A stretch of 64,000 nucleotides of DNA from Kiritimatiellota bacterium B12222 (GTDB taxonomy: Bacteria; Verrucomicrobiota; Kiritimatiellia; SS1-B-03-39; UBA6053): positions 3,658,001 to 3,722,000 of the forward strand of contig CP120722.1 of assembly GCA_029719485.1 (NCBI GenBank), written 5' to 3'. Below the pieces are notes generated by a model that saw only the letters and a list, made by a program, of their open reading frames with translations, was not told the origin of the DNA and searched no databases. The translations under genes were made by a program, and so were the position numbers. Within the stretch, counting starts at the first letter, position 1. Every line of letters starts with the position of its first letter. Shown here one piece after another: positions 23,397-51,382 of this stretch.

Positions 23397-25175
23397 TTAG
23401 AAAAAGAGTAATTCCTTCAATTCCGGCACCGCCTCTTCAAGCATCTCACGACTCGCTTGTAAAATGCTTTCCTTGTCGGTTGCGATCAGGGCATCTTGCG
23501 CCAAGGACGCGGCCTTTTTCTGAGAGAGATTAGCCGCGAGATGTTTAATAAGTGGAACCGATCCCGGAGCGACACTGAGATCTGTAATCCCCAACCCAAT
23601 AAGAATAGGCAACAGTAAGGGACTGCCCGCCATTTCCCCACAGACCGAAGTGGAAATCTGATGTTGTTTGGCGGCAGCAACCGTATGCTGAAGCAGGGAG
23701 AGAACGGCAGGATGCAAGGGATCATACAAAGGAGCGACCTCCTGTTCGAGTCGGTCAACGGCGATGGTGTATTGCACCAAATCATTGGTACCCACGCTGA
23801 AAAAGCCGGTTTGCGAAGCCATCCGATCCGCGGTCAGTGCCGCCGAAGGCGTTTCAATCATCACCCCAGATACGAGATCCGCACCATGTGCCACCCCCTC
23901 AGCTTCCAATTCCGCTTTTGCAGTCCGAAGCAGTTCATCGGCCTGATGAATTTCATCCACCGCACTCACCATGGGATACATCAGCTGAATATTTCCAAAC
24001 CGGGCCGCACGCAGGATGGCTCTGAGCTGAACCTTAAACACATCCGGCCGAATCAGACTCAATCGAATCCCGCGACAACCCAAGGGAGAATGGGACTGCT
24101 CCTTGATATGCTGGTGTGACATAAATTTATCGCCACCCACGTCTAAGGTGCGAATCACCACCTTGGAAGGATGCATCGCCTGGGCCACCGCTTCATAAGC
24201 TGCCGCCTGCTCGTCCTCGGAGGGCAAATCAGGTCGTGATAAAAACAAAAATTCCGTACGAAAAAGTCCAATACCATCCGCGCCCGACTCCAACACCCGA
24301 TCCAGATGTTCAGGTAACTCTAGATTGGCAAAAACCCGTATCGCATACCCATCCGTGGTTTTGACCGCCTTATTTTTTGTCTTCTTTAAGCCCGCCAGCA
24401 AATCCGACCGCAAATGCTCAAGATGTCCGTATTGCGCACGTTGATCCTGACTGGGATTTAACACGACCCGCCCTTGCGTCCCATCAATCAAGATTTCATC
24501 CCCACTCTGCACTCTTTCACAAAGGGCTTCCAATCCCACCACCGCAGGAATCCCCAACGCCCTCGCAATAATGGCCGCATGGGAGGTCGCCCCTCCCATT
24601 TCCGTGGCAATGCCCAGAATCAAACGTTTATCCAGCAAAGCCGTCACCGAAGGAAGTAGATCATGAGCAACAATAATAACGCCTTCTCGACGTTCAATGA
24701 CGGTGCCATTCCCTTCTTCTTCCAAATTTTGTAAAATCCGATTCATCAAATCTTTGACATCCGCCCCCCGCTCTTGAATATACCCCTCCTCCATATCCGA
24801 AAATCGTTTGGCATAAATCCTCATCACGTCGCGCAACACATGCTCAAGATTGAGTTTCCGCTTCCTCAAGCCCTCCACCACTTTTTCAATAAAAGAGCAG
24901 TCATCAATCATCATGATATGAACATCAAAAATGGAAGCCGCTTTTTCATCGATGGTTTCGCCCACATGTTTGCGAATTTCCATCAATTGCGTGCGCGTGG
25001 CCAGCAACGCATCCTGCAAACGTGCAATTTCCCCCGGAATCCCGGCCTCCTCAATGCCTTTCCGCACGATATTCTTTTCGATATCTTCCAAGAGTTGAAC
25101 CTTCCCCACCGCAAGCCCACGGGACGTACCACGTCCCTGAAAGGTGACTTGTTTCGTTTCTTTGGATTTCATCAT
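23397..25175 (-). CDS. ptsI: Phosphoenolpyruvate-protein phosphotransferase (PTS enzyme I)
   Basis: Enzyme I takes phosphate from PEP and passes it to HPr. The 592-residue length is typical. The N-terminal HPr-binding helices are followed by the phospho-His motif GGATSHAAIIARALGIPAVVG (in parts, His199). The PEP barrel has GLFRTEFLFLSR, RTLDVGGDK, GCRGIRLSL, GTNDLVQYTIAVDR and the catalytic-Cys CGEMAG. No ptsH or EII permease lies nearby. The downstream PEGA and GT2 genes share the transcript, so this enzyme I may serve regulation (nitrogen- or carbon-type PTS) rather than sugar uptake. That last point is inference. Confidence 0.95.
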   Translation of the reverse strand: MMKSKETKQVTFQGRGTSRGLAVGKVQLLEDIEKNIVRKGIEEAGIPGEIARLQDALLATRTQLMEIRKHVGETIDEKAASIFDVHIMMIDDCSFIEKVVEGLRKRKLNLEHVLRDVMRIYAKRFSDMEEGYIQERGADVKDLMNRILQNLEEEGNGTVIERREGVIIVAHDLLPSVTALLDKRLILGIATEMGGATSHAAIIARALGIPAVVGLEALCERVQSGDEILIDGTQGRVVLNPSQDQRAQYGHLEHLRSDLLAGLKKTKNKAVKTTDGYAIRVFANLELPEHLDRVLESGADGIGLFRTEFLFLSRPDLPSEDEQAAAYEAVAQAMHPSKVVIRTLDVGGDKFMSHQHIKEQSHSPLGCRGIRLSLIRPDVFKVQLRAILRAARFGNIQLMYPMVSAVDEIHQADELLRTAKAELEAEGVAHGADLVSGVMIETPSAALTADRMASQTGFFSVGTNDLVQYTIAVDRLEQEVAPLYDPLHPAVLSLLQHTVAAAKQHQISTSVCGEMAGSPLLLPILIGLGITDLSVAPGSVPLIKHLAANLSQKKAASLAQDALIATDKESILQASREMLEEAVPELKELLFF

Positions 25176-25594
25176 GAGTATATCTACTCCAGCCTAGCGG
25201 TCTGTAAACCTTAAACAAGCCCATCACTAAATCAATATCATAGCGGGAGCTGCCGCATCCTGCGGCGGAAAACCCACAATGGGAGCTGCCGCATCCTGCG
25301 GCGGAAAAACCGGGCCATCCCGACCCGCCTCCACAAATAAAACTCAAATCCCGAAGGGATGGCTCCCCAAAGCCCAGTCCGTCAGGGCTGGTGCGATCCA
25401 TCCCCCACAACCCAGAGGCCTGTAAGGCCGGCTCCCCCCCCTCAATGCAGGCCAAAATCGGCTTTCAGCACACTCCCCACCAGTGATTCAAACAGGAATG
25501 ACCCTAATCCATTCTTATTTTCCATAGGAATTGACGTGACCCTGACGAAATTCATGACATAAGACTGTGCCCCCATTTTTAAAAGGAAAAGATT
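25176..25594. repeat. Intergenic hairpin-repeat cluster between ptsI and aspS
   Basis: Non-coding, 419 bases. A 28-base direct repeat occurs at 25245-25272 and 25281-25308; each copy holds the hairpin CCGCA-TCC-TGCGG. Then come ATCCC-GAA-GGGAT (25348-25360) followed by GGCTCCCC, a second stem CCAGTCC-GTCA-GGGCTGG (about 25374-25391), and GGCCT-GTA-AGGCC (25417-25429) followed again by GGCTCCCC. On the minus strand the first two hairpins read CCGCA-GGA-TGCGG followed by CAGCTCCC, the same plan. The last 100 bases presumably hold the aspS promoter; TTGACG at 25531 is a possible -35. Confidence 0.8.
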
Positions 25595-27379
25595 ATGAAA
25601 CGTACCCATACTTGTGGCGAATTAAGCCAGGAACAAATTGGCGAATCCATCGTGTTATGCGGATGGGTCGACACCGTCCGCGATCACGGCGGCATTATTT
25701 TCATCGATTTACGTGACCGTTACGGCATCACGCAAGTGGTTTGCGACCCAGATGATAACGCCGCAGCCACAGAAATTGCGAAATCCACCCGTCCTGAATA
25801 TGTGATTCAAGTCAACGGTACCGTTCGAGGGCGTCCCGCCGACATGGTCAACGCTCGCCTGAGCACCGGTGGCATCGAAGTCATTGGCAATGAAGTCACG
25901 ATCTTAAACCGCAGCAAAACCCCTCCTTTCCCCTTGGAAGAAGAAAAAGCGGACAAAGTGAGTGAAGAACTGCGGATGGAATCCCGTTTCCTCGATCTCC
26001 GTCGTCCCTCCATGCAAAACCGTCTGCGGAAACGCCATAAAATGTCGATCGCCATTCGTAAATTCATGGATGCACAAGAGTTTGTGGAAGTGGAAACCCC
26101 CATTTTAACCAAAAGTACCCCCGAGGGTGCTCGCGATTATTTGGTTCCCAACCGTGTCACTCCCGGCACCTTTTATGCCTTACCCCAAGCACCACAACAG
26201 TACAAACAGTTGCTGATGATGGGCGGAATTGACCGCTATTTCCAAATGGCTCGTTGCTTCCGCGACGAAGATTTGCGTGCCGATCGTCAACCCGAGTTTA
26301 CCCAAATCGACGTTGAAATGTCTTTTGTGGATGCCGAAGATCTCTACGGCATTATCGATGGTCTGCTGGCCTCCGTGATGGAAGCGTCCGGACATCCTGT
26401 TCCTGAATTACCCCTGCCCCGCATCACCTGGCATGAGTCCATGGACCGTTTTGGTTCCGACAAACCTGACTTGCGTTTCGGCTGGGAACTCAAAGATTTG
26501 GCCCCTGTATTCCAAGGTACCCAATTTAAAGTCTTCGGCAAAGTGATCGAAGGCGGTGGCGCAGTGAAAGCCATCAACGCCAAAGGCTTGGCCGGTGTGC
26601 CTATTCGTCAGATCGACGAATGGACCGAATTGGCTAAATCCCATGGCATGGGCGGACTCGCCTACATCCGCGCACAAGAAGACGGCAGCTGGAAATCTCC
26701 CATTGTAAAATTCTTCTCCGAAGCAGAGATCGAAGGCCTCAAAACCACCTTGGATATTGAAGCCGGCGATTTGGTGCTCTTCGCAGCCTCCGACTCCAGC
26801 TTAGTGGTCAATGAATTCCTCGGTCGTCTCCGGATTGAAACTGCAAATCAGGCCGGAATCATTCCTCAGGACGAGTTCAAATTCACTTGGGTCACCGAAT
26901 TCCCCTTATTCGAAACCAACGAAGCTGGTCGCTTGGTGCCCATGCATCACCCCTTCACCTCTCCCCTGCCTGAAGATGCACATCTGTTAGATACCGACCC
27001 TGCCAAAGCGCGGGCCGTGGCGTATGACATCGTGCTCAACGGCGTTGAACTCGGTTCCGGGTCCATTCGTATCCACGATCCGGAACGTCAGGGACAAATG
27101 TTCGATCTGCTCAAAATCTCCGAAGAAGAGAAACAAGATCGCTTTGGTCACCTGCTCAACGCTCTCGCCTACGGCGCACCTCCCCACGGAGGCATCGCCC
27201 TTGGTTTCGATCGTTTGGCGCTACTCATGGCGGGTGGAAACACCATCCGTGACGTCATCGCCTTCCCCAAAAACCATAAAGGCATTGATTTGATGATGGA
27301 CGCGCCCTCCAGCGTAGACGCCAAGCAATTGCATGACGTCCACATTCAACTGGACCTTCCCCCAACAACTGAAGGATAA
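25595..27379 (+). CDS. aspS: Aspartyl-tRNA synthetase
   Basis: A class IIb synthetase of 594 residues, the bacterial length with the GAD insertion. The N-terminal OB-fold anticodon domain has VLCGWVDTVRDHGGIIFIDLRDRYG (in parts). Motif 1 is FMDAQEFVEVETPILTKSTPEG, motif 2 is ARCFRDEDLRADRQPEFTQID (in parts) and motif 3 is GIALGFDRLALLMAG. The GAD region lies at about residues 300-420. AAGGA before the ATG gives a good ribosome site. It charges tRNA-Asp; whether it also handles tRNA-Asn cannot be judged here. lepA follows after 43 bases. Confidence 0.97.
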   Translation: MKRTHTCGELSQEQIGESIVLCGWVDTVRDHGGIIFIDLRDRYGITQVVCDPDDNAAATEIAKSTRPEYVIQVNGTVRGRPADMVNARLSTGGIEVIGNEVTILNRSKTPPFPLEEEKADKVSEELRMESRFLDLRRPSMQNRLRKRHKMSIAIRKFMDAQEFVEVETPILTKSTPEGARDYLVPNRVTPGTFYALPQAPQQYKQLLMMGGIDRYFQMARCFRDEDLRADRQPEFTQIDVEMSFVDAEDLYGIIDGLLASVMEASGHPVPELPLPRITWHESMDRFGSDKPDLRFGWELKDLAPVFQGTQFKVFGKVIEGGGAVKAINAKGLAGVPIRQIDEWTELAKSHGMGGLAYIRAQEDGSWKSPIVKFFSEAEIEGLKTTLDIEAGDLVLFAASDSSLVVNEFLGRLRIETANQAGIIPQDEFKFTWVTEFPLFETNEAGRLVPMHHPFTSPLPEDAHLLDTDPAKARAVAYDIVLNGVELGSGSIRIHDPERQGQMFDLLKISEEEKQDRFGHLLNALAYGAPPHGGIALGFDRLALLMAGGNTIRDVIAFPKNHKGIDLMMDAPSSVDAKQLHDVHIQLDLPPTTEG

Positions 27380-29225: not shown

Positions 29226-29749
29226 GGCGTCTCATGGGCCTTTGTGACAGGGTCCCTACACACACGAATCCCAAAGGGATGGCTCTCCAAAGCCCTGTCC
29301 AAAAAGGCGGGTTGGATACCTGATGAAGAATGAAAAGCTGTCCCTACACACACGAATCCCAAAGGGATGGCTCTCCAAAGCCCAGTCCGTAAGGGCTGGT
29401 ATTTGGGGCCGGAGAGAATGGGGAGTGCTGAAAGCACGGCTCTCTCGCTGGCTGACCTAAACTCAACCCGATTTGGAATACACAACTAAATCAAACATGC
29501 TGCTCCATGCAGTAAGAGAGGCGTCCGTAGCGGACTCACATTCAAGAGAGAAGTGTGGATTTAATCCCGAAGGGGCTATAGTATGGACCAAATGCTGAGC
29601 TTGCTCGGCCTGCGGAGCGATCTCATTGCCGATTAAAGTCCATGAAAAGTCACTTCTCCCACAGAAAGGACCAGTCCCCCATGACATCTACGAACTACTG
29701 ACACGGCGAAGCCGCTCGTAACCATTGACAAATGACTACGGACCACTGA
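29226..29749. repeat. Intergenic hairpin-repeat cluster downstream of lepA
   Basis: Non-coding, 524 bases between lepA and lepB. Two direct copies of a roughly 60-base element (about 29252-29312 and 29340-29400) each contain ATCCC-AAA-GGGAT, then GGCTCTCC, then a 6-7 bp second stem. Further hairpins are GTGCT-GAA-AGCAC (29425-29437) followed by GGCTCTCT, GTCCG-TAG-CGGAC (29523-29535), GCTGAGC-TT-GCTCGGC (29594-29609) and CGGC-GAA-GCCG (29704-29714). No open frame here is convincing. Confidence 0.8.
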
Positions 29750-51269: not shown

Positions 51270-51315
51270 CATTCCGAGCGTCGGAACGCCCGCGTCCTCT
51301 TCTTCCGATCCTCGG
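51270..51315. repeat. Pair of triloop hairpins with the same stem
   Basis: TTCCGA-GCG-TCGGAA (51270-51284) and TTCCGA-TCC-TCGGAA (51301-51315) stand 31 bases apart in the spacer after the lyase gene. The stems are identical and the loops differ. They share the 3-base loop plan of the other intergenic hairpins but lack the GGCTC tail. Confidence 0.75.
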
Positions 51316-51382
51316 AACCCTACAAGCCCCCTAGCTATTCTATACTCTTTACAATTTAGACCGCCTGTAATAAAATTGGCGG

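Follow-up and report, generated by a model that had tools for sequence, protein, structure and literature searches.

Among the described systems closest to the locus reported here are an Rfam family and a subclass of Y1 transposases. The family, Acido-Lenti-1 (RF01687), is filed by Rfam under 'Gene; sRNA'; it was rated a probable RNA, not cis-regulatory, by Weinberg et al. 2010 (PMC2864571), and a 2026 paper (PMC13298647) still treats it as a possible gene regulator. The few open-access papers on Acido-Lenti-1 that we consulted do not connect it with a transposase, and earlier recognition elsewhere is possible. TnpA_Y1 subclass 1.2 was defined by Quentin et al. 2018 (PMC6006769) by the signatures DH[IV]H, WQ and YxxxQxxHH and a length of about 148 aa. 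In that survey its members occur mostly in Cyanobacteria and Bacteroidetes, are entered as 'no' for REP, and are generally without the terminal structures of IS200.

Hairpins of the ptsI-aspS spacer

The locus lies in a window of 64,000 nucleotides, the whole stretch of DNA that was analysed, from Kiritimatiellota bacterium B12222. The ptsI and aspS genes are transcribed divergently, so that neither ends in the spacer between them, and this spacer contains five hairpins (h1-h5):

23397-25175, minus strand: ptsI (gene name from the original prediction)
25245-25275, plus strand: h1 repeat, GGGAGCT followed by GCCGC-ATCCT-GCGGC, second hairpin type
25252-25266: h1 hairpin
25281-25311, plus strand: h2 repeat, second copy of the h1 type
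25288-25302: h2 hairpin
25347-25392, minus strand: full-length two-hairpin element of Acido-Lenti-1 type, matching RF01687
25348-25360: h3 hairpin, reading ATCCC-GAA-GGGAT then GGCTCCCC from 25348; on the minus strand, hairpin 2 of the element
25361-25372, minus strand: 12-nt linker of the element, CTTTGGGGAGCC
25373-25392, minus strand: hairpin 1 of the element (h4)
25379-25393: h4 hairpin, AGTCC-GTCA-GGGCT, overlooked in the original prediction
25417-25429: h5 hairpin, reading GGCCT-GTA-AGGCC then GGCTCCCC from 25417
25417-25437, minus strand: h5 half copy, a lone hairpin of the hairpin-2 type with a GGGGAGCC foot at 25430-25437, as in h3
25595-27379, plus strand: aspS (gene name from the original prediction)

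The original prediction grouped h3, h5 and the minus-strand form of h1 and h2 (GCCGCAGGATGCGGC followed by AGCTCCC, which occurs twice) as a single family of covarying hairpins with a common tail. The hairpins and their tails are located as it described, at 25348, at 25417 and twice on the minus strand, but they belong to two different repeat types. The h1 and h2 repeats, 31 nt each and 97% identical within 25245-25311, are a type separate from the element of h3 and h5, and no transposase partner of the h1/h2 type, if there is one, was found. We note that this covarying type, whose core is GCATCYTGC and whose foot is often GGGAG (GCCGCATCCTGCGGC, CGGGGCATCCTGCCCCG, CGCCTGCATCTTGCAGGCG), is present at four sites (window 25245-25311; L159:885-915; L010:6397-6440; L084:1650-1760) and adjoins Acido-Lenti-1 elements in at least two genomes.

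The other type is already in Rfam. A search of all 4227 Rfam families matched positions 25347-25392 (minus strand) to RF01687 over model positions 1-46 with 31.4 bits, which is under the gathering score of 37 for this family; the E-value is 1.4e-5 when 301 bases are searched and 4.8e-5 for 1 kb, and a genome-wide search recovers the same copy (G000:C1:3683347-3683392, E 5e-5). In the 46-nt unit a 12-nt linker joins an 8-bp hairpin to a triloop hairpin of 5 bp, and in the match hairpin 1 corresponds to h4 and hairpin 2 to h3; the full-length structure and linker are present in the focal copy, with four non-standard positions in hairpin 1. The GGCTCCCC tail of the original prediction is the complement, on the other strand, of the internal linker of the element (GGGGAGCC, a variant of GGAGAGYC), and the foot of hairpin 2 is either GGGGAGCC or GAGAGYC. 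The h5 half copy is part of a composite h3-h4-h5 module. A CRISPR or riboswitch was considered and rejected, the remaining Rfam matches in the 1-kb region being far under their cut-offs.

That the hairpins are intrinsic terminators or mRNA-end structures of the flanking genes is extremely unlikely. Two weak terminator-like matches are present on the minus strand of the spacer (0.8 expected in shuffles), but the divergent ptsI and aspS leave no gene end there, the two hairpins of the original prediction precede GGCTCCCC and not a T run, and copies are found in many unrelated places.

The focal hairpin cluster is absent from the ptsI-aspS spacer of two congeners, G003 and G004; in both, this spacer is occupied by a small gene with no assigned function (L067 and L060, respectively). 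A scan of genome contigs with PtsI, which served placement only, gave one Verrucomicrobia locus only (41% identity). A separate palindrome, TTCCGA-NNN-TCGGAA, in which the central triplet is free and copies often stand in tandem 31 nt apart, occurs in the window at 51272-51317 and also upstream of aspS in G002, G006 and G008 (L061, L063, L064). There are 117 copies in the focal genome and 364 in G006, the reversed pattern has none, and the palindrome is nearly absent outside this family of organisms; it has the look of a paired operator or repeat particular to that family.

Copies, covariation and folding

The window has a further cluster of the same family of hairpins, larger than the first, between the convergent lepA and lepB genes (29255-29560), so that the placements in the window are one divergent spacer (25.2 kb) and one convergent spacer (29.3 kb). 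Its tails are GGCTCTCC, GGCTCTCTC and GAGAGGC, and its elements span 29267-29444; bit scores and E-values marked R2 come from a home-made covariance model, and these E-values are rough:

29267-29312, minus strand: degenerate element with hairpin 2 and linker intact and hairpin 1 damaged (R2 38.2 bits, rough E 2.9e-8)
29355-29400, minus strand: second full-length two-hairpin element (RF01687 30.4 bits, E 9.8e-5; R2 62.2 bits, this copy itself having been part of model R2)
29425-29444, minus strand: isolated half copy of the hairpin-2 type with a GAGAGCC foot (R2 16.5 bits, rough E 0.038, model positions 26-45)

Across the focal genome there are 48 RF01687 matches at E<=0.1, many of them in arrays, and six copies other than the focal one reach the gathering score of 37 (best 41.1 bits). 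The arrays reach tens of copies in both orientations. A paralogous cluster near G000:C1:4405690 repeats the h2-h3-h4-h5 order whole, with GGCTCTCC and GGCTCTCTC tails, which makes a drifted GGCTCTCC the best reading of GGCTCCCC; the paralogous cluster (L159) also has a hairpin related to h1 and h2 with a GCATCTTGC core. The h5 hairpin has the same place and form in the 4405690 module and in both modules that flank a transposase gene in G003.

A literal scan of the genome for the hairpins, as the original prediction advised, gives no such picture. In a 462-kb sample of the genome, a stem of at least 5 followed by GGCTCC has 7 matches against 5 with the tail reversed, and a stem followed by GCTCCC has 8 against 8. 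There is no enrichment because the tail varies, and the family is visible only to a structure-aware search. Matches to the GGGAGCTGCCGCNNNNNGCGGC pattern in relatives were mostly unrelated near-matches, and an underpowered covariance model (R1) of the four hairpins alone, with 22 positions, found nothing at E<=0.001, own genome included. The phage collection gave weak matches only, most of which carry either no annotation or that of a transposase, IS200-type or other.

The covariation with pairing kept that had been proposed from the hairpins of the spacer is real, and it is strong across the genome and the phylum (94% paired against 71% in shuffles). Among 26 aligned elements, 94.1% of cells are paired compared with 70.8% after shuffling, 10 of the 13 pairs have changed on both sides, and sliding the partners by one column lowers pairing to 47-54%. 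A set of 140 rows, which was fitted to the model and hence leans towards it, gives 94.2% paired and 70.0% in shuffles, and 11 of its 13 pairs show changes on both sides. The elements are thus, like REPs, multi-copy intergenic palindromes with compensatory stem changes. G-U pairs make up about 10 of the ~1505 paired cells in the 140-row set, for which the tRNA control (6 genes only) is too small to weigh; this scarcity may hint at DNA over RNA. As DNA, the focal copy folds weakly, with z of -1.1 on one strand and -1.6 on the other, and the fold of the G003 copy is good (z -2.7), as would be expected if the focal copy were decaying.

The modest z-scores of single copies and the missing enrichment of the literal pattern in 462 kb are what chance hairpins in a G+C-rich spacer would give. 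We attach practically no credence to this explanation, given an Rfam match with E of about 1e-5, a paralogous cluster whose order is the same, and modules almost identical to the focal one in a second genome; homologous copies already refute it.

Flanks of the YxxxQxxHH transposase genes

No transposase accompanies the hairpins locally, as the original prediction noted, but the family flanks Y1/HUH genes across the phylum. In several genomes, chosen for holding RF01687 matches, about 70-220 bp separate such matches from Y1 genes (G242:C61, G190:C1, G230:C142, G202:C9, G195:C11 twice, G280:C112, G280:C39, G208:C1). The clearest layout is in G003, of the same genus, in which a gene for a 152-aa Y1 transposase (L143:1405-1863) is bracketed by an h3-h4-h5 module on each side, both near-identical to the focal one. 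The encoded protein passes the NCBIfam IS200/IS605 cut-off, is far under the cut-off of the REP-transposase model, and fits the subclass 1.2 signature. The same inverted layout surrounds the transposase of a Bacteroidota plasmid (Persicobacter, CP012861.1), and the left copy there is found also by Rfam's model.

We sorted 73 Y1 loci by their tyrosine motif, excluding two unresolved loci. The element at >=20 bits flanks 30 of the 47 YxxxQxxHH genes (classes assigned by text pattern, not by tree) and none of the 26 other Y1 genes (P=1e-8); with the loci that fed the model removed the proportion is 27 of 44, and a looser cut-off gives 35/47 compared with 2/26. The flank search covered 1.5 kb and missed copies farther out, and within it 17 of the 47 loci of subclass-1.2 type have no element at 20 bits. 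Of the 58 nearest copies, whose orientations were read by hand, 49 point outwards with hairpin 1 beside the gene (P=9e-8). In the reverse direction, a Y1 gene of this type lies within 1.5 kb of 4 of 35 element loci and of 1 of 119 control windows from the own genome. The IS200-like loci L195, L196, L197, L202 and L224 (YxxxQ without HH) have no element, and no insertion junction or target site of the element was resolved. A plasmid of Bernardetia (Bacteroidota; L226), with a gene of subclass-1.2 type, has no such element and carries other flanking hairpins, a repeat at L226:1850-2600 (AGCTGCGTAGCT / AGCTATGCAGCT) near TTTGTAGAA or its complement, so that the partner repeats of subclass 1.2 may be of two or more kinds.

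It is very unlikely that the cluster is a canonical REP family of the GTAG class mobilized by an ordinary class-2 RAYT transposase. The general design is the same, with short palindromes and a constant foot, several families per genome, and grouping near a Y1 gene; Opitutus terrae, of the Verrucomicrobia, is rich in GTAG REPs (PMC3733652), and h1 and h2 start with GGGAG, somewhat like Pseudomonas REPs such as the TGTGGGAGC-hairpin (PMC2817692). However, the 5' foot of h3-h5 lacks the GT[AG]G tetranucleotide, and among the Y1 loci sorted, class 2 (YxxxNP) has no locus with the element at >=20 bits, nor has any other of the 26 outside subclass 1.2.

The focal genome has 17 Y1_Tnp matches. At four of its loci (L024, L025, L026, L030) there are hairpin arrays that are alike in general build but differ in their linkers, and the transposases of L024, L025 and L026 each stand amid arrays that have a linker variant of their own. 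The G003 transposase has no close relative in this genome, the best being L025 with 48% identity. Since such a relative is lacking and the cluster is absent from the G003 and G004 spacers, the focal copies are probably fossils without a cognate enzyme. We also observed a frameshifted relative of the G003 transposase (L027, G000:C1:923676-923885); its coding sequence is divided between two reading frames, and it may be an inactivated member of the YxxxQxxHH group.

An unlikely alternative is that the element acts as a small RNA or a cis-regulatory RNA, is transcribed and folds, and covaries through selection at the RNA level. In its favor are the strength of the covariation, the Rfam entry and the rating of Weinberg et al. 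It fits poorly with the inverted pairs that tie the element tightly to a single transposase subclass, the arrays of tens of copies in both orientations, the placement in a divergent as well as a convergent spacer, and the congeners whose orthologous spacer has no cluster; the rarity of G-U pairs may point the same way, but its tRNA control is too small to weigh it. The original prediction had named selection on RNA or on single-stranded DNA structure as its two options; of these single-stranded DNA is the better one, and RNA selection is not needed as an explanation.

A putative mobile DNA module and its described relatives

Family membership, covariation, multi-copy spread, the statistical tie to the genes and the inverted outward flanking were all obtained here, and we consider it likely that the ptsI-aspS cluster is an eroded example of a mobile DNA module, REP-like and non-autonomous, that is the partner of YxxxQxxHH (subclass 1.2) transposases. 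Its mobilization we infer by analogy with IS200/IS605 elements, including IS608, and with REP/RAYT systems. The transposase would read the folded single strand, for example at replication forks, and would cut in or beside the linker, and the element would thereby spread to intergenic sites by copying or transposition. That different transposases stand amid different linker and stem variants would explain how stems change while pairing is kept. The element in the ptsI-aspS spacer would then most likely be a leftover lacking its cognate enzyme.

More generally, we think it probable that Acido-Lenti-1 is not an RNA but a single-stranded DNA recognition and mobility module of subclass-1.2 TnpA_Y1, REPtron-like, with a two-hairpin unit and a range of at least two phyla, and that it was overlooked since its two halves were entered separately, one as an sRNA and one as a transposase lacking terminal structures. 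This reading would join two orphans, an Rfam family without known function and a transposase subclass without a DNA partner in the main survey (PMC6006769). If it is true, Acido-Lenti-1 annotations mark mobile DNA and not sRNAs. Because different transposases adjoin different stem and linker variants, the hairpin-linker-hairpin units and their candidate enzymes would be ready substrates for work on the co-evolution of HUH enzymes and hairpins. The case also counsels caution, as RNA is not proven by covariation alone.

Compared with RF01687 as described, the focal copy has the same 46-nt two-hairpin consensus and aligns to it end to end; the family is an sRNA in Rfam, whereas here it behaves as transposase-flanking repetitive DNA. 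The partner genes carry the DH[IV]H, WQ and YxxxQxxHH signatures of subclass 1.2 at about 150 aa. Unlike in the survey of that subclass, inverted two-hairpin elements flank most such genes here, and they come from another phylum, plus one Bacteroidota plasmid. With IS200/IS605 elements of the IS608 type (TnpA subclass 1.1) the system shares a related transposase and hairpins at both gene ends, but its hairpin units are also dispersed and arrayed without the gene. The likeness to REP, REPIN and BIME sequences and their RAYT transposases (PMC2817692, PMC3733652) extends to short covarying palindromes with a constant foot, dispersed copies and arrays of alternating orientation, several families per genome, and inverted pairs around the transposase. 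It differs from these in that the GT[AG]G foot is missing, the partners are of class 1.2 where RAYTs are of class 2 (YxxxNP), and the unit is a pair of hairpins of different size joined by a fixed linker.
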